Source: Prevotella sp.
Lineage (GTDB): Bacteria; Bacteroidota; Bacteroidia; Bacteroidales; Bacteroidaceae
Direction: 5' to 3'
Assembly: GCA_015060535.1 (NCBI GenBank)
Contig: SUYH01000005.1
Location: 1-64,000 of the forward strand
Length of the DNA stretch: 64,000 nt
Shown here: positions 5,304 to 50,627 of the stretch, piece after piece
How the letters are laid out: each line of letters begins with the position of its first letter
How positions within the stretch are numbered: position 1 is the first letter of the stretch
Program-made: the position numbers and the translations under genes
Notes under the pieces: model-generated
Seen by the model: only the letters and a program-made list of their open reading frames with translations
Database searches by the model: none
What the model was told of the DNA's origin: nothing

Positions 5304-5858
5304 TCACGATAATCTTTTGCAGACTAAGGCAACGAGGAAGGGGAATAGCAGGATGGCGACGATGGCGAGGAGGGTAGTCAGCGGCAATCTGGAGGGGCGT
5401 GCAGCACCATAGGTGGTCTGATACTGCAGCATGCGGTCGATGTAGGCATCGGCAGTAACCCAACGGCCTGCTGCTACCTCTTGGTTCAGACGGAGAAAGA
5501 CCTCGCTGATGTACTTGCGATGCTCGGCATCCATGCTGAGAGGCAAGTCATCGCCAGCAGCATACCATCTGACGCTGTTGTCCTGCTGATGGGGGAAGAT
5601 GCGCAAAGACTTCCAGCCACCAAAGCCAAAGACATACTCGGCAAACTGCTGTTCAGGGGTCAGCGAGTCGCTGGCGGCTATCTGATGGGTGCGGATATAG
5701 CTGCTGATGGGACAGAGGTTGCCCTCGCTGTCGGCTACCAGCAAACGACAAAAATGAGCGGCCGTAGCATGGGGTAACACCACCGGAGCACTATTGGCTC
5801 CGATGCTGCTACACCAGGCTACAGCCACTACGAAGAGTATGATACGGAAGTGACGCAT
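5304..5858 (-). CDS. Membrane-anchored periplasmic protein of the imelysin operon
   Basis: A 184-residue protein with an N-terminal signal (MRHFRIILFVVAVAWCSSIGA), a soluble middle part and one C-terminal membrane helix (LPLTTLLAIVAILLFPFLVA) ending in a short basic tail. The middle reads FCRLLVADSEGNLCPISSYI and later AEYVFGFGGW, which faintly recalls the periplasmic parts of cytochrome c biogenesis proteins, but I cannot name a family. It starts in TGATG overlap with the stop of the di-haem oxidoreductase, so it is the last gene of the porin-imelysin-oxidoreductase operon. A role in maturation or membrane attachment of the haem protein is inference from position. Confidence 0.7.
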   Translation of the reverse strand: MRHFRIILFVVAVAWCSSIGANSAPVVLPHATAAHFCRLLVADSEGNLCPISSYIRTHQIAASDSLTPEQQFAEYVFGFGGWKSLRIFPHQQDNSVRWYAAGDDLPLSMDAEHRKYISEVFLRLNQEVAAGRWVTADAYIDRMLQYQTTYGAARPSRLPLTTLLAIVAILLFPFLVALVCKRLS

Positions 5859-7615
5859 CAGATAGACTCGATGAATTTGATGACGGCATCACGATCGGCC
5901 TTCTTCAGCTTGTAGAACTTCTCAGTAGCCCGGTAGGCATCCGACTGCTTGGAGTAGCCGTGCCACATGATGGCCTCGAGAACGGTGCGGGCACGACAGT
6001 CGTGCAAGCGATCGTCGGCACCCGTCAGCTGACGAGACAAGCCGCGACCCCAGAGTGGGGTAGTGCGACACCAGCCCGTGCGGATATCGTTCTTCATAAA
6101 CAGACGGTGCTGTACCATATCGGTATAAGGCCAGATGGTCTGGTTGGCGAATCGTGGCAGCATCTTGCTGGCATCCTTGCCCACGCTCTGGGCATAGGCC
6201 TTGGTGGAAGCGTCAATCCACATGTTGTCGGCTCCTGTGGTCCATGAGGGACGGTGACACGAGGCACAACCCAATTCTGTGAAGAGCTGCTTGCCGCGCT
6301 GGACGTCTGCATCGTTCAGATTGCGAGCGGCAGGAACAGCCAGACCACGGTGCCACACCATGAACTGATAGTACTGCTTGTCGGTCATCTCCTCCTGACC
6401 ATTGTAGGGGGCACCCTGGAACAGATACTTGTCGAAGGTCTCCTTCTTGGCGATGGACGAACAGCTCAGTATCTCGTTGACGCGGTTGGCAATGCCAGCG
6501 TCGGTGCCGTCAGCATAGTAGGGATGCAGGATGCTCAGTGGCGAGGCACCATTCTCCTTGATATATTTGATGACCTCAGGGTCCTCGCTCTGTGCCTTAG
6601 CCCAGGCCGGTGTGGTGTAAAGCCAATGGCGGTCGGAGCGCGTCACGTTGGTGATGTTCCAAATGGCATTGGCACCAGCACCATCCTGCAGCGATCCACG
6701 CGTCATGGCATAGGTGAAGCGCTTCAGCGGACCGTGGTCGCCACGATGCTTGCCGGTGTCGTTATAGCCAGCAGCATAGTAGGCTGAGGCCTTGAAACTC
6801 CCTGCCTCCTTGTCCCACATGGCAGGATTCAGCTCGACATACTTGCTCTCGGCAGCCCACTGCTTCTCGATATCCTCGTCGTCGATGGCGTCGAGCAGTC
6901 CGGTGCCATAGACGCCGATGGTGGACTCCAGGCGGACATCATAGTTCTCGGGCTTAGGGTTGGTGTTGAAGGCAGACTGTGGAATGCGCACCTCAGGATA
7001 GATGAGCGCATACTGCTCGCCATCCTCGAACTGCATGGGCAGACCACTCTCCATGGCCGTCACCTCTTTCCACTCGATGCTGATCTGGCTCTCGTCGATA
7101 GGTGCCTTGAAAGGCGTCATAGCCTGTGTCTGGGGCATACCCGTCACTTCGGTGATGTAGCCGTTGGTGTCAGGATGGTAGATGACCAGCAGATAACCGT
7201 TGCCAATGGTGTTGGCGCGATACTCCGTCTGGCGCTTTCCATGACCGTAGCCAGGGTGGCAGGCAATACAACTGTTGCGCACCCAGGCAGGACCCAGTCC
7301 CTTGCGAGGCTCCTGTTCGAAGGTGTAGAGGTGTTCGAAGAAGTCCTCGCCCGTATTGAAATCATCGTCCATGCCAGCCTGTTCGGCAGCAGGGGCAATG
7401 GCAGAGTAGCTGGCCTTCTCGGTAGTGCCCAGCTGACCGCCAGGAAACCACTCGTCGGCTGTGAAGTTGCCCGTAGCCTTGCCAAACACCTCCTCGTCGA
7501 GGGTCAGCGAGCCCAGGTCCTTGGCACTGGCACTGTCGCTACTATCGGAACATGCTGCCAGCAAAGTTGCTGACAGCAGTCCCAGACATGTTGTTTTGAA
7601 AAGTTCTCTTCTCAT
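5858..7615 (-). CDS. Di-haem oxidoreductase lipoprotein (DHOR/thiol oxidoreductase family)
   Basis: A 585-residue lipoprotein: signal with lipobox ending at Cys22 (TLLAAC), then a large domain with two c-type haem sites, CIACH at 116-120 and CASCH at 450-454. Layout and length fit the DHOR family (di-haem cytochrome c peroxidase relatives, once called thiol oxidoreductases). It should act in the periplasm, anchored in a membrane. In Bacteroidetes these genes commonly travel with imelysin lipoproteins, exactly as here (imelysin stop 9 bases upstream). The probable context is periplasmic iron or peroxide handling; the substrate is unknown. Confidence 0.88.
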   Translation of the reverse strand: MRRELFKTTCLGLLSATLLAACSDSSDSASAKDLGSLTLDEEVFGKATGNFTADEWFPGGQLGTTEKASYSAIAPAAEQAGMDDDFNTGEDFFEHLYTFEQEPRKGLGPAWVRNSCIACHPGYGHGKRQTEYRANTIGNGYLLVIYHPDTNGYITEVTGMPQTQAMTPFKAPIDESQISIEWKEVTAMESGLPMQFEDGEQYALIYPEVRIPQSAFNTNPKPENYDVRLESTIGVYGTGLLDAIDDEDIEKQWAAESKYVELNPAMWDKEAGSFKASAYYAAGYNDTGKHRGDHGPLKRFTYAMTRGSLQDGAGANAIWNITNVTRSDRHWLYTTPAWAKAQSEDPEVIKYIKENGASPLSILHPYYADGTDAGIANRVNEILSCSSIAKKETFDKYLFQGAPYNGQEEMTDKQYYQFMVWHRGLAVPAARNLNDADVQRGKQLFTELGCASCHRPSWTTGADNMWIDASTKAYAQSVGKDASKMLPRFANQTIWPYTDMVQHRLFMKNDIRTGWCRTTPLWGRGLSRQLTGADDRLHDCRARTVLEAIMWHGYSKQSDAYRATEKFYKLKKADRDAVIKFIESI

Positions 7616-7624
7616 GAGCTATGA

Positions 7625-8953
7625 TTACTCTGTGATTGAATCCCAGTTGTCAGGGTCGTCGAAATCCTTACCCCATACCACGCTGCAATACTTGACGAAA
7701 GGAGCGGGCATATTGCTGATGTTCTCGATAGCCGATACATAAGTACCTTCTAATGCTGTGTTCACGCTGTTCTTGTTGACGCTGGCGAAGAAGGTGTGGA
7801 AACTGTACTGGTTGGCCGTCTTGTCGGTAGAACCCAGCCAGATGTTACGGATAGAGCGGATGTTGTCGCGGAAGTCGGTGATAGAGTTGTAGCTATAGGG
7901 CGACTCCACATAAGCGATGTCAGCGTTGGAGAAGGGGTTGGCAATCTTGGCAGTACCTACCTCGTTGGCGATACCCACGCAAGAACCCTCGTCGTTAGAG
8001 AGAACCTGTGCGATGGCTGCCTTCAGGGTAGAGAAGGTGCTCTTGCTGTCAGCGATACCAGCCTTGAAGAGGTTCTCGCCAAAGGAAAGACCACGAGAGG
8101 TGGTGTAATCCAGCTTGGCAGCCTTGACCACTGCTACGCGGTTGGCATTGGCCTCGGTCTCTCCCTCCCAGGCTACCTGCAGCTGATAGCAACGCTCCTT
8201 CAGCAGTTTGCAGATGGTCTGAGCGTAAGCCAGCTCCTGAGCACCCGAAATCTGTTCGAAGTTGGTATAGGTGTCGTTGCCCTTCAGCTCAGCCACCTTA
8301 CGGTTCTGGCCATTACGGAACAGGATGAACTCCAGAGCGTGGAAGCCCAGGATGGTGGCGTCCTCCAGCATCTCGTCGTTCATGCCGTTGTTGAAGTAGT
8401 TGAGCAGCAAGGTGCGGTTCAGGGGCCATGAGTCGATGGTGGGGTCGATGTCGAAGTCGGAAGCTGCACCCATGAGGAAAGCCTCAGAGCGCTCCCAGTT
8501 CAGACGGGCAGCCTTGAAGTCTGCACAGGCCTGGTCAATCTGAGCCTGTGTGATGGTGTTGACCGTCAGACCATTCAGCGTCTTCTCCAAGTCTTCTACG
8601 TCGTCAGCCAGCTGTGTGTAGGTAGGAACGATGACGTTGCTGACCAACGTCTGCAGCACCTTGCGCAGATAAGCCTCCTGCTCTTCGCTGAGTTTGGCAG
8701 AGGCAATGGTGGCGTTGGCCTTCTCGAGCTGGTCTACCAAGTCGCCACAGTCGTCGATGGCTTGCTGTCCGAAGGTCTTGCTGCTATAGCTGGCAGCTGC
8801 CGTGTTCGACGCATAGGTGTCGTTGTCGACAACTGGTGTGGTGTTGACGATGTTGAAGTCGGTGTTGCTGTTGTTGTCGTCGCTGTTACTGCTACATGCA
8901 GTAAATGAGAGTCCTGCCATGAGGACTGTCATGGAATAAATCAGTTTTTTCAT
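7625..8953 (-). CDS. Imelysin family lipoprotein
   Basis: A 442-residue lipoprotein with lipobox Cys20 (GLSFTAC) and a Ser/Asn/Asp-rich linker. The imelysin signature GxHxxE is present as GFHALE (residues 203-208), preceded by the typical WERSEAFLMGAASDFDIDP block. Imelysin-like proteins (ICMP/EfeO relatives) are linked to iron uptake in other bacteria, with the GxHxxE residues proposed as a metal site. Two helical repeats are expected and the length is normal. It is the second gene of the operon, between porin and di-haem oxidoreductase. Metal specificity cannot be read from the sequence. Confidence 0.9.
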   Translation of the reverse strand: MKKLIYSMTVLMAGLSFTACSSNSDDNNSNTDFNIVNTTPVVDNDTYASNTAAASYSSKTFGQQAIDDCGDLVDQLEKANATIASAKLSEEQEAYLRKVLQTLVSNVIVPTYTQLADDVEDLEKTLNGLTVNTITQAQIDQACADFKAARLNWERSEAFLMGAASDFDIDPTIDSWPLNRTLLLNYFNNGMNDEMLEDATILGFHALEFILFRNGQNRKVAELKGNDTYTNFEQISGAQELAYAQTICKLLKERCYQLQVAWEGETEANANRVAVVKAAKLDYTTSRGLSFGENLFKAGIADSKSTFSTLKAAIAQVLSNDEGSCVGIANEVGTAKIANPFSNADIAYVESPYSYNSITDFRDNIRSIRNIWLGSTDKTANQYSFHTFFASVNKNSVNTALEGTYVSAIENISNMPAPFVKYCSVVWGKDFDDPDNWDSITE

Positions 8954-8995
8954 TGTTGTTATATGATTGATGAATGATGTGGTTGTTCTTTTGTG

Positions 8996-10288
8996 TTATC
9001 TGAAGAGTCCGACGTAGGCCACTCCGAGATTGATGGAAGGCTCGTCGTTGTAAAGGTTCTTCAGCAGTCGCTTGGAGTATTCGCCCTTGATGGCAATCTG
9101 GCGGATGGGGTAGTAGTTGACACCTACGGCAAAACGCTTCACGGCAGTATAGGCGTAGCTGACACCCTTCGTATCGCTGGCGTAGGGATTGTAGGCCTCA
9201 TAGCGTCCGAAGACGTAAAACTTCTGTCCGTCCTTGCGCATGCTCTCAATCTGCGAGAAGATGTCGTATCCTGCCTCGATACCGATGGCATAGGCATTGC
9301 CGCTGACAAAGGCTGAGTGCTTGTAGGGTGACTTTGAGTTCAGTCGGTTGTACATATATTTCAACTGTTCGGCATCGCCCAGATAGCCGTAGTCTGCCTG
9401 TCCGCGAACAATCCAGTTGTGGGCATGATAGGTGAAGTCGATGGAGCCGATGGCTATCTTTCCCTTGTAGGTAGCACCAGCACCGCTGGCATCGTTGGGG
9501 TAGGTGTTGCCGATGCTGTGGCCATAGTATCCGCTCAGTCCGATGCGCAGTCCTGGAACGCTGTAGTTGTCGATGCGCAAGGCGGCGCCGTACTTGTTGG
9601 CTACGTCGAACTCCAGGGGCGACTTGTTGCCCTTGTGAATCCAGCCGGTATTGGTGAAGTGGTCGGCATTCAGACCAGCCAGGAACTGTGCCTCATAGCG
9701 GAAGTCGCCATAGCGCCCAAAGAACGAGATACCGGTCTGGTGCCAGGTAGAGGGCATGATGGTGTTTTCGCCTTCCGGACGATAGACGGTAAAGAAATTC
9801 AGCGGCTCGTGGTGGGCATTGTTCAGACCTACGGGCACGACGATATGGCCGACGCGGAGATTGCCCCAGCGGCCGAACGTCTTCTGCAGCCAGAACTGCT
9901 CCAGCTCCACCTCGCCACTCTTCTCGGTCTCCTGTTCCCATTCGCCGCCTTCCTCGTCTTCCTTCTCGTAGGCGATACCTGTGCCGCCATGCTCGAACTC
10001 AATCTCAGTACCGAACGACCAGCCCTTGCCGAAGTCGTAGCCCAGATAGATGACAGCATGTGGAATGTCGAAGCGCCCGTGCGACGGGTCGTTCTTATGC
10101 TCCTCAGGCTGACTGTAGCGGCTCACGTGGTCGCTAAAATAGTTACGCGAGAAACAGACTTCTCCATAGCCGCCGATGCTCAGTCGGTTGCCTCTGGCGT
10201 GGTTCATCACGCTGTCGGCAGCATCGCCCTGAGCCATAGCGACCATACTCATGAATACGGATATGAATCCGAATACAAATCTTTTCAT
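8996..10288 (-). CDS. Outer-membrane porin-like beta-barrel
   Basis: A 430-residue protein with a signal peptide (MKRFVFGFISVFMSMVAMAQ) and a beta-barrel pattern of alternating aromatic and polar residues up to a C-terminal YVGLFR. It has the GGYGEVCFSRNYFSD start and the LEQFWLQKTFG, LRVGHIVVPVGLNN segments typical of Bacteroidetes phosphate-selective/OprO-like porins. The acidic insertion EKEDEEGGEWEQETEKSGE may form a loop that attracts cations. It is the first gene of the porin, imelysin, oxidoreductase, membrane-protein operon, so it may let a metal or chelate reach the imelysin. The substrate is inferred only. Confidence 0.85.
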   Translation of the reverse strand: MKRFVFGFISVFMSMVAMAQGDAADSVMNHARGNRLSIGGYGEVCFSRNYFSDHVSRYSQPEEHKNDPSHGRFDIPHAVIYLGYDFGKGWSFGTEIEFEHGGTGIAYEKEDEEGGEWEQETEKSGEVELEQFWLQKTFGRWGNLRVGHIVVPVGLNNAHHEPLNFFTVYRPEGENTIMPSTWHQTGISFFGRYGDFRYEAQFLAGLNADHFTNTGWIHKGNKSPLEFDVANKYGAALRIDNYSVPGLRIGLSGYYGHSIGNTYPNDASGAGATYKGKIAIGSIDFTYHAHNWIVRGQADYGYLGDAEQLKYMYNRLNSKSPYKHSAFVSGNAYAIGIEAGYDIFSQIESMRKDGQKFYVFGRYEAYNPYASDTKGVSYAYTAVKRFAVGVNYYPIRQIAIKGEYSKRLLKNLYNDEPSINLGVAYVGLFR

Positions 10289-10315
10289 AACAAATTATGT
10301 GGTTAAAAACGGATG

Positions 10316-10345
10316 CAAAGGTATGGCAATTCTGTTTTTTCTGCA
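10316..10345 (-). promoter_or_regulatory. Promoter of the porin-imelysin operon
   Basis: On the minus strand TACCTTTG lies at 10316-10323 with TTGC 19 bp upstream. The -33 element overlaps the left arm of the inverted repeat at 10341-10383. Confidence 0.7.
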
Positions 10346-10383
10346 ATACCTAATTATGATGAAAATGATTTTTACTATTGCAG
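10341..10383. promoter_or_regulatory. Inverted repeat shared by two divergent promoters
   Basis: CTGCAATA (10341-10348) and TATTGCAG (10376-10383) are a perfect 8-bp inverted repeat with a 27-base gap. Each arm covers the -33 region of one divergent promoter (porin operon and hemerythrin-LuxR gene), so a dimeric regulator could control both. Confidence 0.5.
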
Positions 10384-10408
10384 AATTCACTAAAAATTAT
10401 TACTTTTG
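10378..10408 (+). promoter_or_regulatory. Promoter of the hemerythrin-LuxR gene
   Basis: TTGC at 10378-10381, 19 bp, TACTTTTG at 10401-10408; 35 bases precede the ATG. Confidence 0.75.
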
Positions 10409-10443
10409 CAGCGTCATTCATTTAATAAGGTATAAAGGGAACA

Positions 10444-11403
10444 ATGAAGAACTTGAAGATGTATGAGCCACAAGACAAGATGATCACGCTCATCAAGGAT
10501 AATTATAGTGTGCTGCAGGCACTTGGCAGCTTCGGCATCAACCTGGGTTTTGGCGACAAGACGGTGGCTGAGACCTGCGAGATGAATGGGGTGGACACCT
10601 ATACCTTCCTGGCGGTGGTCAACTTCACCATCAACGACTTCACCAATTATGATGATGACGAGCGCATCAGCGTGCCTACGCTGCTGCACTACCTGGAGGC
10701 CAGCCATGCCTACTATCTCGACTTCCAACTGCCCTTTATCCGTCGCGAGTTGCAGGAGAGCATCAGCGAGGGCAATCAGCTGGGGCAGCTCATCATGAAA
10801 TTCTATGATGAATATGCCCAGGAGATTCGCCGCCACATGAAGTACGAGGAGAAGACATTGTTCCCTTATGTGCAGTCGCTACTTGACAACCAGCCTGCCA
10901 ACGACTATAACATCGAGATGTTCTCGAAGCACCATGAGAGTACGGACAAGAAGCTGCGCGAGCTGAAGCTCATGATTATTAAGTATCTGCCTGCCAATGC
11001 CCATCTGAACAACCTGCTGACAGCTACGCTCTACGATATCTACAACAACGAGGAATGGCTGCGCCAGCATGCTGAGGTGGAGGACCATATCTTTACGCCT
11101 GCCATCCGCAGACTGGAGCGTCAGACCAAGCAGAACGACGTGACGAAGAACATCTCGACGATGGTCTTCAAGGGTGGTCAGGACGGTGGCGAGGTGCTGA
11201 GTGAGCGCGAGCGCGACGTCATTGTCAGCGTGGTACAGGGCATGCAGAACAAGGAGATAGCCGATCACCTGTGTATCTCTATCAATACGGTGATCACCCA
11301 TCGTCGCAACATCGCGCGCAAGTTGCAGATCCACAGTCCTGCAGGTCTCACGATTTATGCTATTGTCAACGGATTGGTCGATATCAGCAGCGTGAAGCTG
11401 TGA
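10444..11403 (+). CDS. Hemerythrin-domain LuxR-type regulator
   Basis: A 319-residue two-part protein. Residues about 15-60 resemble the ScdA N-terminal domain (ETCEMNGVDTYTFL) without its Cys pair. Residues about 75-225 form a hemerythrin-like four-helix domain with candidate iron ligands His82, His88, His131, Glu135, His163/164, His209 and Glu213. Residues about 250-312 are a LuxR/GerE helix-turn-helix (LSERERDVIVSVVQG, NKEIADHLCISINTVITHRR). RIC/YtfE-type hemerythrins respond to iron, oxygen or nitric oxide; joining one to a DNA-binding domain suggests a direct sensor-regulator. It is divergent from the porin-imelysin operon and convergent with another LuxR gene 7 bases away. Confidence 0.88.
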   Translation: MKNLKMYEPQDKMITLIKDNYSVLQALGSFGINLGFGDKTVAETCEMNGVDTYTFLAVVNFTINDFTNYDDDERISVPTLLHYLEASHAYYLDFQLPFIRRELQESISEGNQLGQLIMKFYDEYAQEIRRHMKYEEKTLFPYVQSLLDNQPANDYNIEMFSKHHESTDKKLRELKLMIIKYLPANAHLNNLLTATLYDIYNNEEWLRQHAEVEDHIFTPAIRRLERQTKQNDVTKNISTMVFKGGQDGGEVLSERERDVIVSVVQGMQNKEIADHLCISINTVITHRRNIARKLQIHSPAGLTIYAIVNGLVDISSVKL

Positions 11404-11410
11404 TGGCGGC

Positions 11411-12016
11411 TTAGATGGTATTGATGTCTACATAGCCGTGCATGACGGCATAGATAGTCAATGCCGAAACGCTCTTCATACCCAGTTTCTCCATGATGTT
11501 CTTACGGTGGGTAATGACGGTAGAAAGGCCGATGTGCAGTTTTTCGGCAATCTCTTTGTTGATGTTACCCTGAACGATGAGCGACATCACTTCAATTTCC
11601 CTGTCAGTCAGTATCTTCTGCTGCAGCACATGCGGCATCTGGGGTAGGTTATGTCCGCCAGCGTGGGCATGCTGCTCTAGCATCAGCAGCGACTTGACGA
11701 GTTGTTGCTCAGGCTGGTTGATATAGAGGCTATGGAATTCGGAAAGCTGGGCGGAGTCGCTGAACGAGAGCGTCAGCACGATAGTCTTCCGCTTGTGTTG
11801 GGTGAAGTAAGCCCTGTTGCGCAAGACGATGTCCATAGCGACGAAGAAGTGGAAATATGTGTCAGGCTGGCTGGCTTCCAGTTCGGCAAATGTTCCGAAC
11901 GTGTCGACAGTCATGATAGGCATCACGTTCAGCAGAATTTGTTTCAGCCCCAGCGTAGCCAGCGTGTTGCTGTCTACGATAGCTATTTTGGGCCTTCCGC
12001 TTGTTATTTTCTCCAC
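11411..12016 (-). CDS. LuxR-family response-regulator-like protein
   Basis: A 201-residue protein: a receiver-like N-terminal domain (PKIAIVDSNTLATLGLKQIL) and a C-terminal LuxR helix-turn-helix (LTDREIEVMSLIVQG, NKEIAEKLHIGLSTVITHRK). The receiver is degenerate: one Asp instead of the usual acidic pair near the start, a possible acceptor Asp in FFVAMDIVL, a Thr in IVLTLS, and no clear conserved Lys. It may thus work without phosphorylation. It is the last gene of the minus-strand operon, 12 bases after the RelA/SpoT-domain gene. Its C-terminal 60 residues closely match those of the convergent hemerythrin-LuxR protein, including the end TIYAVMHGYVDI. Confidence 0.85.
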   Translation of the reverse strand: MEKITSGRPKIAIVDSNTLATLGLKQILLNVMPIMTVDTFGTFAELEASQPDTYFHFFVAMDIVLRNRAYFTQHKRKTIVLTLSFSDSAQLSEFHSLYINQPEQQLVKSLLMLEQHAHAGGHNLPQMPHVLQQKILTDREIEVMSLIVQGNINKEIAEKLHIGLSTVITHRKNIMEKLGMKSVSALTIYAVMHGYVDINTI

Positions 12017-12028
12017 GTTCTAGTCTTT

Positions 12029-13123
12029 TTATTTGCTCATGAACGACAGTCGGCTGGCTTGTTCGATGACGATGTTAGCCAGCGTGTCGTTTTGTTGGTG
12101 ATTGCCGTTGATGGCATCGAAAATCTTGACGAGTCCTGGTTTTCCTCGGCCCGTCTTCAGGTTGTGTACGATGCAGAGGTTCTGCAGTCCTATCGTCTCT
12201 GAAAGGATATCGATATCCGTGCTGCCCAGTTGGAACAGTGCCAGCTGGTAGGCGTCGTCGGAGTCTTCCTTGATCATGCGGCCAATGTCGCCCAGCGTGC
12301 GCAGCCTCAGTTGTCGCATCACGTTGAGGTAGGGCAGGAACGAGGCCTCTTGTATCTCGGCCTGGGTGATGGCGGCAATCTTGCGGTTCAGCTTGTCGAA
12401 GGGGCGTGTCGACATGTACGAATTGAACGAGTCGCCATCGATGGGCACCTCTTCCAACAGTCCTTTATGTACCAATTTCTGGATGCGTCGACGATAGTCA
12501 ACGATGGATGTTCGGATGCGGCTGAACTCATCGTCGGCCACCTCCAGCATACCTGCCAGTCGGCTGAGCTGCCGGTGGTACTCCTGTGGTATCTCCACCT
12601 CCGACTTGTAACCGATGTCGTGCTGAATGGCCGACCATACATGCTGCAGGGCTGTACGCATCTGGAGCTCGAAGCGGATCTCGTTCAGTTGGGGCAGCTC
12701 AGGGTCGAAGTAAAGTGTCTTGGGCAATCGGCAGATATAGTGCAGCGAGTTGTATCCAAAACTAGTCACCTCGTGCATCTTGCGCTTGTCAACCGAGTTA
12801 GGCCAGTCTATCTCGAAGAGCGACTCCGCCAAAGCGGCAATGCGGTCTACGTCTTCGTTATAGAATGTGATGATACGGGCTCCGAAGATGTCAGTAATGT
12901 CCATGATCGATTGGTATTTCGCCCCCTTTCGCTTCAACTTGCCAGCCAGCGAGTCTTCCGTCTTGATGCGAAACTCCATCGAGTTAATGACAATGTCACT
13001 CTTCTTAAGCTGCATGCCCAGTTTCTGGGTGACGACATCCTGCAATTGCAAGTAGAGATGCTGCTGGGAATGATATTCTGCCAGTAGCATCTCTCCATGC
13101 AGGTCGAGACCGTAGTTCTCCAT
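12029..13123 (-). CDS. RelA/SpoT-domain protein, possible small alarmone synthetase
   Basis: A 364-residue protein with a central RelA/SpoT synthetase domain: EFRIKTEDSLAGKLKRK, then DITDIFGARIITFY with the catalytic-type Asp, SFGYNSLHYI, and EIRFELQMRTALQHVWSAIQ with the catalytic-type Glu, ending in HDIGYKS. These are the ppGpp-synthetase landmarks; there is no HD hydrolase, TGS or ACT domain. The C-terminal ~150 residues are helical and unassigned. It would make (p)ppGpp from GTP/GDP and ATP if active. It follows the STAS gene by 15 bases and precedes the LuxR gene by 12, so its synthesis is tied to a partner-switching module. Confidence 0.88.
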   Translation of the reverse strand: MENYGLDLHGEMLLAEYHSQQHLYLQLQDVVTQKLGMQLKKSDIVINSMEFRIKTEDSLAGKLKRKGAKYQSIMDITDIFGARIITFYNEDVDRIAALAESLFEIDWPNSVDKRKMHEVTSFGYNSLHYICRLPKTLYFDPELPQLNEIRFELQMRTALQHVWSAIQHDIGYKSEVEIPQEYHRQLSRLAGMLEVADDEFSRIRTSIVDYRRRIQKLVHKGLLEEVPIDGDSFNSYMSTRPFDKLNRKIAAITQAEIQEASFLPYLNVMRQLRLRTLGDIGRMIKEDSDDAYQLALFQLGSTDIDILSETIGLQNLCIVHNLKTGRGKPGLVKIFDAINGNHQQNDTLANIVIEQASRLSFMSK

Positions 13124-13138
13124 AGGGAATTGAGGTTT

Positions 13139-13441
13139 TTATTTAATCTCGAACAGGTTGAAGAACCCTGTCATCATAAATACCTTCTTGATCTCGTCAT
13201 TGATGTTCACAATGACTACCTTTCCGCCCTTGGCAGAAGTCTCCTTGCGGAGCGTCAGGAATAAGCGCAGACCAGAGCTGCTGATGTATTCCAGGTTGGT
13301 GCAGTCGAGTGTGATTACCTTGTCGGCATTCTCCAGCAGCGGAGCAACGTCCTGCTGAGCCTTTACGGCTGCCGGGGTGTCCAAACGACCGTTGAAAATG
13401 GCAGTCATACCACCGTTCTGCTCTATGATTTCAATATTCAT
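13139..13441 (-). CDS. STAS-domain anti-sigma-antagonist-like protein
   Basis: A 100-residue STAS protein of the SpoIIAA/RsbV type. The conserved block LDCTNLEYISSSGLRLFLTL carries the Ser cluster whose phosphorylation by an RsbW-like kinase switches binding in partner-switching systems. Length is normal for a single domain. It lies 33 bases after the RsbW-like gene and 15 before the RelA/SpoT gene. No phosphatase (RsbU/PP2C) or dedicated sigma factor is encoded nearby, so the output partner is unknown. A paralogue with the same neighbour order is at 50316-50627. Confidence 0.9.
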   Translation of the reverse strand: MNIEIIEQNGGMTAIFNGRLDTPAAVKAQQDVAPLLENADKVITLDCTNLEYISSSGLRLFLTLRKETSAKGGKVVIVNINDEIKKVFMMTGFFNLFEIK

Positions 13442-13474
13442 TGTTGTTAAATTTAGATTTTACATAATTAGGAA

Positions 13475-13888
13475 TTACAGCTTCTTACGCAGCGTCAGCA
13501 CGTTCTTGTCACCATCACGCTGGTATTGGATGACATCCATCAATTGGCGTACCAGGAAGATACCGAGTCCGCCGATGGGGCGCTCCTCTGCCGACAGCGT
13601 GGTGTCAGCGTCTTCCTTGGTTGTAGGGTCGAAAGGAACGCCTGAATCGCTGATGACGAATGTGAGCCATTCGCCGTCGGTCATCGCTTCTATCTCGACG
13701 TTGCCTTGCTGTCCTTCGGGGTAGGCATAGTCCATTACATTGACCACCGCCTCCTCCATGGCAAGGTTAAGGCTCATGGTGAGCGACATGTCAAGAGCCA
13801 TCTCCTCAGCCACCGAGTCGATGAACTCGTTCAGCTGAGGGATGGTCTCAATGTCGTTAGGCAATATCAGACTACGCTTGATTTCCAT
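13475..13888 (-). CDS. RsbW-like serine kinase/anti-sigma ATPase
   Basis: A 137-residue GHKL ATPase of the RsbW/SpoIIAB class (HATPase_c_2). Visible motifs are the N box LNLAMEEAVVNVMDYAYPEG, the G1 box ISDSGVPFDPT and the G2 region PIGGLGIFLVRQLMD. Such kinases phosphorylate a STAS antagonist and sequester a partner, classically a sigma factor. The gene starts 12 bases after the stop of a lipoprotein gene and continues into STAS, RelA/SpoT and LuxR genes. It is clearly paralogous to 49877-50293 (shared MEE and YAYPEG, and DPTxKxDAD blocks). Confidence 0.9.
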   Translation of the reverse strand: MEIKRSLILPNDIETIPQLNEFIDSVAEEMALDMSLTMSLNLAMEEAVVNVMDYAYPEGQQGNVEIEAMTDGEWLTFVISDSGVPFDPTTKEDADTTLSAEERPIGGLGIFLVRQLMDVIQYQRDGDKNVLTLRKKL

Positions 13889-13900
13889 CGTTCAAATCGC

Positions 13901-14704
13901 TTATTTTACGAGCGCAGCACGAGCGGTGTCGATAGCGTCCTTGGCGTCGTTCAGCTGCTTCTTGAGCTCGTCGGTAGAAGTGGCGTTGAGCACCTCCAGA
14001 GGAGCAACAGCGTCAGCGATAGGCTTGATCTCAGGATCGTACTCAGCCAGACGGTTGATGGCATCCAGCACGAGGATGACGCGGAAGGTGATGTTTGAAG
14101 CAGCCTCGTCGTCTACCACGCTGAGGAACTTGTCAGCATTCTGGTTGGCGATGTACAGCTCCTCAACGAGAGCTGCAGAAGCCAGCTGCCAGAAGTAGTT
14201 GATGCGACCATTCTTCTCCATCTCTTCATACAATGTCTGAGTGGTCTCGAAGATAGTGCCAGAGTTCTCTACGGTCTTGAACGAAGGATCGTTGATGTCG
14301 GCAATGAGCTTGGCAATAGCCTTGTCGTAGTCCTCAACAGGCATCTCATAGAGCTCAGCAACTTTCTTGTCAACTGACAGGGCGCTCAGCATGCGATATT
14401 TCTCAGCCAGAGTGGCAGCATCGTCGGCAGCGCTTGCTGACAGCAAATAGTTAGGCTTCACCTGCTTCTCCTCCTTGGTCAGCGTCAGACCACCATTCGA
14501 CTCCTGTACGAAACCGGGCTGCTTCAGCTTACCTACCTCGGCAGCGATGCTGTCAATGTGCATCTTGATACTAGCCTCAATCTGCTGCTGTTCGAAAGTC
14601 TTCAGCGAGTCTGCATCCTCTACGTTGTTTTCTGTCTTTTTGCCTCCACAAGCTGCGAAGACGATTGCTGCAAATGCAACAGCAAAAATGGTTAACTTCT
14701 TCAT
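13901..14704 (-). CDS. Lipoprotein of unknown function
   Basis: A 267-residue lipoprotein: signal MKKLTIFAVAFAAIVFAACGG with lipobox Cys19. The mature part is helical and charged (KTFEQQQIEASIKMHIDS, later DAKDAIDTARAAL), without recognisable catalytic motifs. The start at 14704 is set by the signal peptide; the frame continues to 14863 without a good start. It lies 44 bases after the ABC exporter and 12 before the RsbW-like kinase. It may be an envelope sensor or substrate-handling partner; this rests on position only. Confidence 0.75.
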   Translation of the reverse strand: MKKLTIFAVAFAAIVFAACGGKKTENNVEDADSLKTFEQQQIEASIKMHIDSIAAEVGKLKQPGFVQESNGGLTLTKEEKQVKPNYLLSASAADDAATLAEKYRMLSALSVDKKVAELYEMPVEDYDKAIAKLIADINDPSFKTVENSGTIFETTQTLYEEMEKNGRINYFWQLASAALVEELYIANQNADKFLSVVDDEAASNITFRVILVLDAINRLAEYDPEIKPIADAVAPLEVLNATSTDELKKQLNDAKDAIDTARAALVK

Positions 14705-14748
14705 TTTGTTAAACTGTTTTTTGTTATTAATTAATAGAATTATTGTTT

Positions 14749-17643
14749 TCAATTGTTCTTTCTCAAATAGCGTCCAGGCCTGTCGCTGAACAGCATGACG
14801 GCAACCACGATGCACATCAGCATCATGACGGCCATGTTGAACCACAGGGTCTTCACGTGCCACTGGCCTACCACCTTTTCGCTGCTGTAGAAGGGAGCCC
14901 TTCCACAGGTGCTCTGTGGCGTTAGGAAGATGATTCCCGTGCGCGGAACGATGTAGTTGTCAATCACGTCAAGCATGCGCTTCTGGTCGGCTCCTATCAC
15001 GCAGTCTTCCAGCTTCGTATTGTAGTTGTCGCGCTTCAGCTGCAGCAGGGCTTCCTTGCCGTTCTGCCTGATGAATGTCGACTTCATGGCGTCTACCTTC
15101 ATGGTGGCAGTATTGCCGCGCTTGGCCAGAATGCTTTCTGCCTCTTTCATATATGAGGACAGCGACTCATACGATTTGTCACCACTATAGGGCTTCATGC
15201 CGCAATATTCCGTCAGCAGGGGCAGGTTGGTCATGATGACTTCCATATGGTTGGGGTCTACCTCCTTGCCTTTGGTCTGCTCGTCCTTCATGGTCTCCAA
15301 CTGCGACTCCAGCTCGTAGAGGTGTCCCATGTTGTAGTACTGGGCCTCGTAGCGCTCCTTGTCCAGCTTGAAGAATGGTGCCTCGTACTCGTTGTCGGTA
15401 AACGAGGTGACGGCCAGCGCCTCATAAGCCCATCGGGTGGGGATGATGTCGCCGATGACCGGCACGTTGCCCGTCGTGCTCTTCGGTGTCAGGTCTGAGA
15501 AGCTGACCACCAGTCCGCAGAGCAGGATCTGGGGGATGAGCAGCAGCGGAATGCTGATATAGATGGCCACTACCGAACTCAGACATTGCGACAGCAGCAG
15601 TCCCACCAGGTTCGACAGCAGCGCTGTGACGAACAGGATGAGCCACCACGTGCCGAACAGCCCGTGCAGTCCCATAATCGAGTTGCCTATCACGATGAAG
15701 AGCAGCGTCTGCAACAGCGAGACACCTGCCATATAGATGATTTTCGACCAGATATAGCTGCTGTACGAGAGGTTCAGGAAACTCTCGCGCTTCAGCAGGG
15801 CGCGGTCCTTGATGATTTCCTCTGCGCTGCCGCTCATGCCGATGAATGTCGCCACGATGACCGACATGAAGAAGTAGCTCACCAGGTTCTTGTTGTCCAT
15901 CACGGTGTAGCCCTCGGGTGGGGCATAGCGTGTCAGGAACGAGCAAACCACAGCCAGCAGTGGAGCCTCCAGCAGCGTGATGCAGAGGTATTGCACGTTG
16001 GTGATCTTCGACTTGAAGGTGCGCTGCAGGAAGATGCCCAGCTGCTTCAGCGCGTTGGGCTTCCGTTGGTCTGAGGCCGGAACAGCACTCACCTTCGGCT
16101 CCGTCATGGGCTTCCTGTTCTTCAGGTAGAGCTCATGCCACTCCTGTGGTTTCATCTTGCGCTCGTCCGACAGTTCGCCCGAGTTGTTCAGCGCCTTTTC
16201 GTCGATGATGTTCAGCACGATCTCGGGGTTTACGTTACCGCATGTCGGACACGCACTAGTCTCAGCATCAGCGTAATTTGCAGCTTCCTTAAAGTAAGTT
16301 ATAGCATCTATCGGGTTGCCGTCGAACACGGGGTAGCCACCCTTGTCCAAGAGCCACAAACGGTCGAACAGCTTGTAGACATCACTCGACGGCTGGTGGA
16401 TGTTCACCACGATGAGCTTGCCCTTCAGCGTTTGCTCTTTCAGCAGGTTGATCACCTTCTCCGTGTCAGCCGACGACAGGCCCGATGTCGGCTCGTCGAG
16501 GAACAGCACGGCAGGTTCTCTGATCAGCTCCAGCGCGATGTTCAGTCGCTTGCGCTGTCCACCGCTGATGTATTTGTTGATGGCCGATCCCACCTTCAAG
16601 TCCTTGGCAGCGTCCAGTCCCAGGTCTTTCAGGGTCTTCATGACGCGCTTGTCAAGCTCCTGGTCGTTCATGCCCTCGAAGCAGAACTTGGCGGTGAACC
16701 AAAGGTTCTGGTATACCGTCAGCTCCTCAATCAGCAGGTCGTCCTGTGGCACGAAGCCTATCAGGCTCTTCGCCTCGGGTTCGTCAATGCTGTGTCCGTT
16801 AATGGTGATGGTGCCCTCCTGCGGCTTCAGACTGCCGTTGAGCAGCGAGAGTAGGGTAGTCTTGCCCGTTCCCGATCCGCCCATGATGGCCAGCAGTTCA
16901 CCGTTGTGCAGGTCGAAGCTGAGGTTGTGCATGCCGTTGTCGCTGTTGGGGAATCGGAAGGCGATGTTGCGCCCGCAGAATTCCACGGCTTCGCGCTGGC
17001 CTTCAGCCTTGTCGCCGTTATAGGTTCTGATGATGCTTGAATAGTAGACGGGATTGCCGTTCTTGCCTTTCAGCACGCTGCTCTGTATCCACACCTGGTA
17101 TGAGCCAGTCAGCACGGGCACATCGTTCAGCAGCACCGTGTCCTCGCCCATGTAGGTGAAGATGAGCATGCCTGTCGTCGGGTCGAGCAGCGTCTTCAGC
17201 GTTCCGTCGAAACCCTCCAGCTGGTGCAGCTTCACGTGCTCCGTCGGCTTGCCGGCCACATAGTCCAGGAAGCTGTCGTACTGCGCTGCGGGGATGTTGA
17301 ACTGCTTGACCATTGCCTTGAACATCTTGTCCGACAGCTTTTCGTCAGCATAGCAGAATTCCATCAGTCGCAACAGCAGCAGCGCCTTCTCGGTGTTCTG
17401 GATGTCGCCTTGCAGATTGGCACATATTGAGTTGACCGTCGCCTCTGTGTCCAGTTCGTCAGTCATCTCGTAGGCCATTCTCATGTCCGTGTAAAGATCC
17501 AGGTAGAGGTCTGTATTTCTGATACCGAAGTGACGACGTAAATAGCTGACGAGCATGCTTTTAGCTCGTTCTTCATCCACTTGCTCTTCCTTGCCGAACA
17601 GGGCAAACAGACTGATGAAGCTTGATAGTATGATGTCAGTCAT
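14749..17643 (-). CDS. ABC-2-type exporter with N-terminal TerB-like domain
   Basis: A 964-residue fused ABC protein. Residues about 1-130 look like a helical TerB-type domain. A nucleotide-binding domain follows with Walker A GGSGTGKTT (255-263), signature ISGGQRKR (about 365) and Walker B VLFLDEPTSG (about 385). A CPTC motif lies near 485, then an ABC-2 permease domain with about six membrane helices to the end, interrupted by a large extracytoplasmic loop. The layout resembles ABCG-type half transporters and the Bacteroidetes family of the same length. The substrate is unknown. It is the first gene of a possible six-gene unit ending at the LuxR gene. Confidence 0.88.
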   Translation of the reverse strand: MTDIILSSFISLFALFGKEEQVDEERAKSMLVSYLRRHFGIRNTDLYLDLYTDMRMAYEMTDELDTEATVNSICANLQGDIQNTEKALLLLRLMEFCYADEKLSDKMFKAMVKQFNIPAAQYDSFLDYVAGKPTEHVKLHQLEGFDGTLKTLLDPTTGMLIFTYMGEDTVLLNDVPVLTGSYQVWIQSSVLKGKNGNPVYYSSIIRTYNGDKAEGQREAVEFCGRNIAFRFPNSDNGMHNLSFDLHNGELLAIMGGSGTGKTTLLSLLNGSLKPQEGTITINGHSIDEPEAKSLIGFVPQDDLLIEELTVYQNLWFTAKFCFEGMNDQELDKRVMKTLKDLGLDAAKDLKVGSAINKYISGGQRKRLNIALELIREPAVLFLDEPTSGLSSADTEKVINLLKEQTLKGKLIVVNIHQPSSDVYKLFDRLWLLDKGGYPVFDGNPIDAITYFKEAANYADAETSACPTCGNVNPEIVLNIIDEKALNNSGELSDERKMKPQEWHELYLKNRKPMTEPKVSAVPASDQRKPNALKQLGIFLQRTFKSKITNVQYLCITLLEAPLLAVVCSFLTRYAPPEGYTVMDNKNLVSYFFMSVIVATFIGMSGSAEEIIKDRALLKRESFLNLSYSSYIWSKIIYMAGVSLLQTLLFIVIGNSIMGLHGLFGTWWLILFVTALLSNLVGLLLSQCLSSVVAIYISIPLLLIPQILLCGLVVSFSDLTPKSTTGNVPVIGDIIPTRWAYEALAVTSFTDNEYEAPFFKLDKERYEAQYYNMGHLYELESQLETMKDEQTKGKEVDPNHMEVIMTNLPLLTEYCGMKPYSGDKSYESLSSYMKEAESILAKRGNTATMKVDAMKSTFIRQNGKEALLQLKRDNYNTKLEDCVIGADQKRMLDVIDNYIVPRTGIIFLTPQSTCGRAPFYSSEKVVGQWHVKTLWFNMAVMMLMCIVVAVMLFSDRPGRYLRKNN

Positions 17644-17681
17644 CTTCGGTTAGAGAAATGCTTTTTTAGCAAATATCTTTG

Positions 17682-17689
17682 CAAAATTA
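17682..17689 (-). promoter_or_regulatory. -7 element of the ABC exporter gene
   Basis: TAATTTTG on the minus strand, 38 bases before the ATG; no clear -33 partner. A plus-strand TATCTTTG overlaps at 17674-17681 but no plus-strand gene follows. Confidence 0.5.
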
Positions 17690-17759
17690 TGAAAAAACTC
17701 CGACTACCTCCTATTATTGCAGTTAAAAAACATTAAAACGGCTAATCGGAGCCTTTCCT

Positions 17760-18389
17760 TTACGTGTTGTTGTCCATTGGGAACAGTCCGTAGAGCTTCG
17801 CGTCGATCATGTCGGTCACCTGCTTCAGGTCTTCGGGATTGTCGCCGAATTTGCAGTGGTCGCCATCCACCACAATCAGCGGTCCTTTATACGAGGCTAT
17901 CCACGTTTCGTAGCGCTCTTCCAGTCCTTTCAGATAGTCCAGTCGCATGGTTTGTTCATATTCGCGACCGCGCTTCTGAATCTGCCCTACCAGCGTGGGA
18001 ATGCTCGACCGGATATACAGCATCAGGTCGGGCAACTTCACCAGCGACATCATTAGGTCGAACAGGTCGGTATAGTTCTGGAAGTCGCGGTCCGACATCA
18101 TGCCCTGATCGTGCAGATTGGGTGCGAAGATGCGTGCATCCTCGAAGATGGTGCGGTCCTGGATGATGGTATCCTCCGATTTCGATATCTCCACCACCTC
18201 CTTGAAGCGTTTGTTCAGGAAGTATACCTGTAGGTTGAACGACCATCTGGGCATGTCGGCATAGAAGTCGGCCAGATAGGGGTTGTTGTCTACGGGTTCG
18301 AATCTGGGTGTCCATCCGTATCGGTGGGCCAACAATTTGGTCAGCGTGGTCTTTCCGCTGCCAATGTTTCCTGCTACTGCTATATGCAT
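17760..18389 (-). CDS. Deoxynucleoside kinase (second of a tandem pair)
   Basis: A 209-residue deoxynucleoside kinase (dNK family). The P-loop GNIGSGKTT is at residues 7-15, the ribose/base-binding WSFNLQVYFL follows, then the catalytic QDRTIFED motif and the Arg-rich lid (QIKRGREYEQTMR-like block at about 140). It would phosphorylate deoxyadenosine, deoxyguanosine or deoxycytidine with ATP for salvage; specificity cannot be read reliably. It lies 34 bases downstream of a paralogue that differs at the base-binding positions (QDRTIFED versus QDRTIYEG), recalling the paired kinases of lactobacilli. Confidence 0.92.
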   Translation of the reverse strand: MHIAVAGNIGSGKTTLTKLLAHRYGWTPRFEPVDNNPYLADFYADMPRWSFNLQVYFLNKRFKEVVEISKSEDTIIQDRTIFEDARIFAPNLHDQGMMSDRDFQNYTDLFDLMMSLVKLPDLMLYIRSSIPTLVGQIQKRGREYEQTMRLDYLKGLEERYETWIASYKGPLIVVDGDHCKFGDNPEDLKQVTDMIDAKLYGLFPMDNNT

Positions 18390-18423
18390 AACTTATTGAT
18401 AGTTTAGATTTTAGTGTTTAAGT

Positions 18424-19056
18424 TTAAAGTTGTGGTGGAAACAGTCCGAACAGCTGGCTGTCTATGCGGTCGATGATCTGTGCTAGGTCCTTCGGGTTGT
18501 TCAAGAAGTCCAGTTGGTCCTTCTCCACCGTCATCACTTGCCCATTATATTTATGGTATATGAAGTCGTCGTATCGTCGGTTCAGATTCTCCAGATATTC
18601 CAGCTTCATGGTCTGTTCGTAGTCGCGTCCGCGTAGCTGGATATTACCCACCAGATGGGGCACCGATGCCCTCAGGTATATCATGAGGTCGGGCTTCCGC
18701 ACCACCGACATCATCTGCTCGAACAGCTCCATATAGGTCTCGTAGTCGCGGTCCGACAGATTGCCCATCTCCTTGTTGTTCTCCATGAACACGTAGACGC
18801 CCTCATAGATCGTTCGGTCTTGTATGATGGTGTGGTCGGCCTGTGTGATTTTCATCAGGTCGCGGAATCGCTCTTTCAAGAAGAACACCTCCAGGTTGAA
18901 CGACCACCGGTGGATATCCCGATAGTAGTCCTCCAGATAGGGGTTCTCCTCTACCACCTCATAGCGGGCCTCCCAGCCATAGTGTTTGGCCAGCAGTCGC
19001 GTCAGCGTCGACTTTCCGCTGCCTATATTTCCTGCTACTGCAATGTACTGTTTCAT
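18424..19056 (-). CDS. Deoxynucleoside kinase (first of a tandem pair)
   Basis: A 210-residue dNK-family kinase with P-loop GNIGSGKST, WSFNLEVFFLKERF, catalytic QDRTIYEGVYVF and the lid LRGRDYEQTMKLEYL. It is about half identical to the downstream kinase by eye and shares its ending (QLFGLFP/KLYGLFP). Its ATG overlaps the stop of the upstream lipoprotein gene, so translation is coupled. A heterodimer with the second kinase is possible, as known for the lactobacillus enzymes, but that is inference. Confidence 0.92.
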   Translation of the reverse strand: MKQYIAVAGNIGSGKSTLTRLLAKHYGWEARYEVVEENPYLEDYYRDIHRWSFNLEVFFLKERFRDLMKITQADHTIIQDRTIYEGVYVFMENNKEMGNLSDRDYETYMELFEQMMSVVRKPDLMIYLRASVPHLVGNIQLRGRDYEQTMKLEYLENLNRRYDDFIYHKYNGQVMTVEKDQLDFLNNPKDLAQIIDRIDSQLFGLFPPQL

Positions 19057-49876: not shown

Positions 49877-50293
49877 ATGATGAAAAAACAACTAAAGCTC
49901 AAGAATCAAATAGGAGAACTGGCCCGGGTCAATCAGTTCATCGAGGAGATAGCCGATGAACTGGGTCTCGACATGGAACTCCAGATGAATCTTAATTTAG
50001 TGATGGAGGAGATGGTCAGCAATATCATCTTCTACGCCTATCCCGAAGGCATCTCCGCCGACATCGAGCTGACCGCCGAAAGCGACGGCCACGAGCTCTC
50101 CTTCGTGCTCAGCGACAAGGGTAAAGCCTTCGATCCCACGTTGAAAGACGATGCCGACCCCAATGTCAATCCTGCCGAGCGCGAGATTGGCGGCATGGGC
50201 ATCTTTATCGTCAAGAACATCATGAACGAAGTGACCTATCAGCGCTTGGACGGCAGAAATCTGCTGACTTTGAAGAAGAGGTTAGAGAAATAA
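49877..50293 (+). CDS. RsbW-like serine kinase/anti-sigma ATPase (second copy)
   Basis: A 138-residue GHKL ATPase of the RsbW class: N box LNLVMEEMVSNIIFYAYPEG, G1 box LSDKGKAFDPT and G2 region EIGGMGIFIVKNIMN. It is paralogous to 13475-13888. The start is the first of two adjacent ATGs. It is followed 22 bases later by a STAS gene and then a kinase-like ATPase gene, giving a second partner-switching module. Confidence 0.9.
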   Translation: MMKKQLKLKNQIGELARVNQFIEEIADELGLDMELQMNLNLVMEEMVSNIIFYAYPEGISADIELTAESDGHELSFVLSDKGKAFDPTLKDDADPNVNPAEREIGGMGIFIVKNIMNEVTYQRLDGRNLLTLKKRLEK

Positions 50294-50315
50294 TAAACAT
50301 ATCAAATTAAATATT

Positions 50316-50627
50316 ATGACACAGATTTTAAAAGAAGGTGGTAAGACCATCATTAAGACAGGTGAGCGTATTGACACGATGAACGCATCGCAGTTTGAAC
50401 AGGACATCCAGCCTGCTTTGGCTGATGGCGGTCTCGATCTCGAAATGGACTGCTCCGATCTGACCTACATGGCCAGCTCCGGTCTCCGTATCATCCAGAA
50501 GACCATGCGTACGGTGATGCAGCAGAAAGGCCAGTTCAAGATGACCAATGTGAGCCCCGAGGTCTATAAGGTGCTCGCCATGACTGGTTTCACCAAGTTC
50601 ATCAAGGTCGAGAAGAAAGCAGAGTAA
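50316..50627 (+). CDS. STAS-domain anti-sigma-antagonist-like protein (second copy)
   Basis: A 103-residue STAS protein: LDLEMDCSDLTYMASSGLRI carries the phosphorylatable Ser pair. It is the likely partner of the upstream RsbW-like kinase and a paralogue of 13139-13441. Length is standard. Confidence 0.9.
   Translation: MTQILKEGGKTIIKTGERIDTMNASQFEQDIQPALADGGLDLEMDCSDLTYMASSGLRIIQKTMRTVMQQKGQFKMTNVSPEVYKVLAMTGFTKFIKVEKKAE

Follow-up and report, generated by a model that had tools for sequence, protein, structure and literature searches.

A run of six minus-strand genes in a 64,000-nt stretch of Prevotella sp. DNA (contig SUYH01000005.1; this whole stretch is called the window hereafter) encodes an ABC-2 type exporter, a putative lipoprotein, an RsbW-type serine kinase, a STAS protein, a small alarmone synthetase (SAS) and a LuxR-type regulator. 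The reading favoured here, which we give an even chance, is that the kinase and the STAS protein form a partner-switching phospho-relay with the SAS as its predicted output, the binding of STAS to SAS being assumed by analogy. This reading is drawn from the recurrence, in shuffled gene orders, of SAS, STAS and RsbW genes (joined in some loci by genes of a SpoIIE-type phosphatase and of a small alarmone hydrolase, SAH), including the five-gene run SAS-SAH-RsbW-SpoIIE-STAS of one relative (L153).

Conservation of the synthetase neighbourhood

The same-genus set comprises 249 genomes, that of the window included; a SAS match was obtained in 98 of them, and it is strong (E below 1e-100) in 89. Neighbourhoods were counted at 94 strong loci besides the window, 93 of them with enough sequence for an upstream call. 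The SAS gene is immediately preceded by a STAS gene on the same strand in 59/93 loci and has one in range in 63/94; in 57 of these 59 adjacent pairs, the STAS match starts 293–346 bases before the SAS match. As the genome of the window (2.94 Mb, 83% complete) contains only two free-standing STAS genes, we estimate that a STAS gene would lie within 700 bases by chance in about 0.05% of cases, versus the 59/93 observed. The neighbours are thus not conserved at random, an outcome that the earlier note had named as one that would speak against a functional unit. RsbW/SpoIIE-type profile matches were found near the SAS gene in 54/94 loci and an SAH in 22/94; 67/94 have STAS or RsbW and 75/94 have STAS, RsbW or SAH. 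LuxR follows the SAS gene in 17/94 loci, all of them within the 31 loci whose SAS scores at least 590, and STAS is directly upstream in 29 of these 31.

Beyond the genus, the order sample (295 genomes, own included) gave 20 SAS matches, with six other loci that resemble the window's SAS family; these six carry an SAH (6/6), an RsbW/SpoIIE-type gene (4/6) and a STAS gene directly upstream (3/6). Among 29 distant named loci, including some from Fibrobacter and Akkermansia metagenome-assembled genomes (MAGs), 27 have STAS, RsbW/SpoIIE-type or SAH genes on the strand of the SAS gene at a distance of up to 8 kb (19, 19 and 22 loci, respectively). On a SAS tree built with FastTree, weak in parts, adjacent STAS needs 15 changes and SAH 16; the association has therefore been rebuilt or lost repeatedly.

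Some individual loci have features of their own. In three Akkermansia MAGs (L148, L149 and L151), STAS, SAS and SAH genes are consecutive, and the SAS of L148 and L151 are placed among Bacteroidales sequences on the tree, which suggests either inter-phylum gene transfer or MAG contamination. In three Fibrobacter MAGs (L139, L141 and L143), the SAS gene is flanked by genes of an alarmone-hydrolase-like protein and of an EF-G-like GTPase (the latter named by eye), with no STAS in range. At positions 11110-12525 of L142, beside the SAS gene, a single chain combines an alarmone-hydrolase-like HD_4 domain with an APH/choline-kinase-like domain.

The RsbW-STAS pair and the synthetase

The kinase is of the RsbW-type HATPase_c_2 class that characterizes partner-switching systems, and its ATP-binding motifs are conserved across 44 relatives. 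At sequence level, the STAS protein (PF01740) has the presumed phosphorylatable residue of an antagonist, Ser55, a serine found in 148/148 collected STAS domains of the family (duplicates included) at the position that we take to be the phosphosite of SpoIIAA and RsbV. The genome encodes seven SpoIIE-type phosphatase proteins, none of them on the window's contig. Relatives often carry the phosphatase in the cassette: in L124 it is a 793-residue PDC-HAMP-SpoIIE-HATPase_c_2 fusion protein, whose cluster includes 36 proteins from 33/80 loci; some of these proteins lack the kinase portion. Both free-standing RsbW-STAS pairs of the genome fall inside the window. The second one (49877-50627, plus strand) lies between an AraC-like gene upstream and a histidine-kinase-like ATPase gene downstream (both named by eye), and crosstalk between the two pairs is possible.

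The SAS consists of a RelQ/RelP-like catalytic half (residues ~1-210) and a C-terminal domain (~203-364), an addition of ~160 residues that is conserved among relatives. RelA_SpoT is the sole Pfam family over its cut-off; HD hydrolase, TGS and ACT domains are absent. R52, K54, D78, R83, Y124, H128, E152, Q154 and R156, which were aligned to YjbM and are presumably the ATP-, Mg- and GTP-binding residues, are kept in at least 97% of 130 SAS members; this conservation of the active site argues against the catalytically inactive domain that the earlier note had considered. In a fold comparison, the protein is nearer to RelQ/RelP (18.8) than to CapRel (12.8) or FaRel2 (7.9). It is therefore classed as a small alarmone synthetase of the RSH superfamily and predicted to produce alarmones, starvation signals of the ppGpp type. 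With RelQ/SAS1 and RelP/SAS2, it has the catalytic fold and motifs in common, and it differs from them by its conserved C-terminal domain and its partner-switch neighbours. It was not assigned to RelQ/YjbM proper, as it scores 61.8 bits against the NCBIfam YjbM equivalog (cut-off 320).

A proposed model for the relay

The relay could work as follows. The RsbW-type kinase would phosphorylate STAS on Ser55, and a SpoIIE-type sensor phosphatase, encoded off-contig, would take the phosphate off. One phospho-form of STAS would bind the SAS, probably at its C-terminal domain, and this binding would set the rate of pGpp/ppGpp synthesis, by either activation or inhibition. For LuxR and the ABC/lipoprotein pair, the model foresees a role as effectors expressed together with the relay or as additional clients of this STAS. 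Hydrolysis would fall to the two long RelA/SpoT (RSH) enzymes that are encoded elsewhere in the same genome, a role predicted for the SAHs in related cassettes. In its broadest form, which we hold to be plausible with a little less than an even chance, the proposal is that of a self-contained, phosphorylation-gated alarmone circuit beside RelA/SpoT, made up of sensor phosphatase, RsbW, STAS, synthetase and, in relatives, hydrolase: STAS, acting on the SAS C-terminal domain, would switch ppGpp synthesis in response to an outside signal, and would also serve LuxR or the exporter, coupling a messenger, transcription and envelope export. If true, control of the SAS by a STAS phospho-switch would link an outside signal to ppGpp by a new path, one that can bypass the ribosome, and would give a function to the SAS that this Prevotella carries besides its two long RSH enzymes.

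Alternative explanations

Several observations weigh against control of the SAS by the switch. Neither the window nor the rest of its contig was found to have a phosphatase; in the window SAS, Gln replaces the Glu of the RelQ IEH motif, in a column that is not conserved; and 19/94 genus loci have neither STAS, RsbW nor SAH, while 8/94 have SAH only. In the phylum sample (22 SAS matches in 395 genomes, own included), ten of the 21 deeper relatives were examined and none of the ten has STAS, RsbW/SpoIIE-type or SAH neighbours, so the link is a trait of the window's SAS subfamily. Co-occurrence is also open to an effect of ancestry. With ancestry ignored, STAS (E ≤1e-15) is present in 89/89 SAS genomes versus 63/160 others (Fisher p 2.6e-26), and where STAS is not in range of the SAS (26 genomes), a STAS is always present elsewhere, of the window type in 10 of the 26 versus 13/160 SAS-free genomes. 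On a 60-genome AlaRS tree, the co-occurrence of STAS and SAS is not significant: among five supported independent contrasts, STAS changes the same way in 1.3 on average and the opposite way in 0. Furthermore, STAS is also present in 7/8 genomes in which the SAS is solely of a distant type, and part of the co-occurrence therefore reflects lineage. Lastly, among the 58 close relatives of the window STAS in the genus (at least 141 bits), 26 lie beside a SAS gene and 32 do not.

These 32 bring in the alternative that RsbW and STAS control LuxR and/or the ABC-lipoprotein exporter, the SAS being a removable, merely co-expressed gene between STAS and LuxR. In the 20 that were examined, the SAS is absent from all and STAS is kept in all, with LuxR directly after STAS in 11 and the ABC-lipoprotein pair before it in 10; over the 32, ABC is upstream in 18 and LuxR downstream in 11. 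ABC also co-occurs with the SAS (58/89 SAS genomes versus 27/160 others; p 2.2e-14, ancestry ignored). From its gene content, the window thus seems to contain a modular cassette in its version with SAS, of which (SpoIIE-)RsbW and STAS would form the core, while the ABC-lipoprotein pair, a transporter, SAS, SAH and LuxR would be optional parts. The switch probably has clients other than the SAS, since STAS directly precedes LuxR in those 11 of 20 SAS-less cassettes. Genomes that carry the cassette minus the synthetase serve as natural controls. Exclusive control of LuxR or the exporter nevertheless appears unlikely, though worth retaining: STAS precedes the SAS far more often than LuxR follows it (59/93 versus 17/94 genus loci), the SAS-STAS pair persists without LuxR, without ABC, in distant gene orders and with SAH, and LuxR, at 193/249 genus genomes, is distributed much more widely than STAS or SAS. 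The earlier note had proposed ppGpp synthesis or LuxR as the output of the switch. Both have comparative support, on the one side from the SAS-STAS/RsbW link that recurs in reshuffled orders and without LuxR or ABC, on the other from the STAS-LuxR and ABC-lipoprotein-STAS links that exist without SAS.

Co-regulation could also explain the run by itself: stress genes would share a promoter, STAS would never touch the SAS, and the latter would be governed by transcription or by its own allostery. The tight gaps and the one candidate promoter box before the run fit this, as does the fact that SASs are often controlled by expression; own allostery is known for RelP/RelQ. Shared transcription, however, predicts neither that the same two or three families meet in shuffled orders nor the conserved extra domain of the SAS, and we regard this explanation as improbable. 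Far less probable still is a toxSAS-like or phage-linked effector with STAS as its antitoxin, toxSAS being toxins that pyrophosphorylate tRNA or ADP and are paired with antitoxins of their own. It would agree with the patchy distribution of the SAS (any match in 98/249 genus genomes), a weak match to the PADLOC candidate PDC-S33 (49.3 bits) and a match of SAS residues 12-278 to phrog_9640, a phage family of unknown function (223.6 bits), which indicates that phages carry SAS relatives.

A side observation concerns SAS-less cassettes: L292 has two STAS cassettes that face each other; the first includes the ABC-lipoprotein pair, the second a split citrate-transporter-like gene and two STAS genes, and a SAS gene is missing from both.

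Comparison with known systems

Partner switches control sigma factors and diguanylate cyclases. One comparison is with RsbU-RsbW-RsbV and SpoIIAA-SpoIIAB (summarized in PMC10212131). These systems and the window have in common a HATPase_c_2 kinase and a STAS antagonist with serine at the usual site, and their type of SpoIIE phosphatase is found in the window's relatives. The operon of the window differs by having no sigma factor gene and, instead, an alarmone synthetase gene after the STAS gene.

SiaABCD of Pseudomonas aeruginosa, together with HsbA-HsbD and BgrV-BgrR, is the other comparison (PMC8457831, PMC7647112). Unphosphorylated SiaC activates the cyclase SiaD, and phosphorylation by the kinase SiaB prevents this activation (PMC8457831). 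SiaABCD and the window share a kinase, a STAS or STAS-like protein and, as presumed client, an enzyme that makes a nucleotide second messenger. The client is a GGDEF diguanylate cyclase in SiaABCD, whereas it is presumed to be an alarmone synthetase in the window; SiaC belongs to DUF1987, whereas its counterpart is a STAS domain; the PP2C/SpoIIE phosphatase is part of SiaABCD, whereas it occurs here in the cassettes of relatives only and not in cis; and the window adds ABC, lipoprotein and LuxR genes. Since RelA_SpoT and STAS replace GGDEF and DUF1987, the system was not classed as SiaABCD-type, and the best reading is that it would work like SiaABCD without being a member. No publication that places an alarmone synthetase under the control of a partner switch came up in the literature search, and STAS-type gating of a second-messenger synthetase was found in print for c-di-GMP only. 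The part of the 2011 RSH survey that deals with Bacteroidia gives Rel and RshB for the eight covered, with a further mark in the row that is not assignable (PMC3153485).

Gene organization and transcription signals

The six genes and the gaps of 44, 12, 33, 15 and 12 bases described in the earlier note are reproduced exactly by the open reading frame coordinates (Table 1), the lipoprotein start being an internal ATG of a longer listed frame. Pfam agrees with the proposed identities; the lipoprotein is unclassified there and its NF050142 match is under the cut-off.

Table 1. Features of the six-gene run and its neighbour (positions in the 64,000-nt window; strands relative to its forward strand)
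Feature	Position	Strand	Evidence and remarks
Candidate promoter box TAATTTTG	17682..17689	-	38 bases before the ABC start codon; pattern search with the Bacteroidetes consensus
ABC-2 type exporter (964 aa) with fused ATPase and permease	14749..17643	-	PF00005 118.6 bits, PF01061 72.4 bits
Putative lipoprotein, 267 aa	13901..14704	-	NF050142 37.1 bits (under cut-off 50); relatives keep this gene next to that of ABC
RsbW-type serine kinase, 137 aa	13475..13888	-	PF13581 (HATPase_c_2) 104.1 bits
STAS switch protein (100 aa) with Ser55 as presumed phosphosite	13139..13441	-	PF01740 65.1 bits
Small alarmone synthetase (SAS), 364 aa	12029..13123	-	PF04607 RelA_SpoT 57.9 bits, cut-off 27
LuxR-type regulator, 201 aa	11411..12016	-	PF00196 (GerE) 64.2 bits; N-terminal part without Pfam match
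Hemerythrin-LuxR protein, 319 aa, convergent neighbour	10444..11403	+	PF01814 50.4 bits, PF00196 60.7 bits

The motif TANNTTTG, which we take to be the -7 promoter box of Bacteroidetes, was found by pattern search on the minus strand ahead of the ABC gene (Table 1) and just once inside the six-gene run, at 12757-12764 on the minus strand within the RelA/SpoT gene. The scan of region 10200-18500 gave zero minus-strand terminator-like sites and a sigma-70 promoter count not above that of shuffles. From the tight gaps and the one candidate promoter box ahead, the six genes are predicted to be co-transcribed, an operon being the likely reading. In the whole window (1-64000), TANNTTTG occurs 42 times versus 20.6 expected, with a maximum of 35 among 100 shuffles, as if it were a working promoter element.

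The LuxR and hemerythrin-LuxR genes

The hemerythrin-LuxR gene converges on the LuxR gene, 7 bases apart, and is probably not part of the six-gene unit. As LuxR is far more widespread in the genus than the SAS, the LuxR/hemerythrin-LuxR pair was probably there first and acquired the cassette as a neighbour later. The Asp in the AMD stretch of the window LuxR is not kept among 57 relatives. The idea that the hemerythrin-LuxR sensor may share targets with the operon, also put forward in the earlier note, is considered weaker than those of ppGpp or LuxR as output. In many relatives, the hemerythrin-LuxR gene is adjoined by porin-like, imelysin-like and di-haem oxidoreductase-like genes, which occupy 5858-10288 on the minus strand of the window (named by eye).
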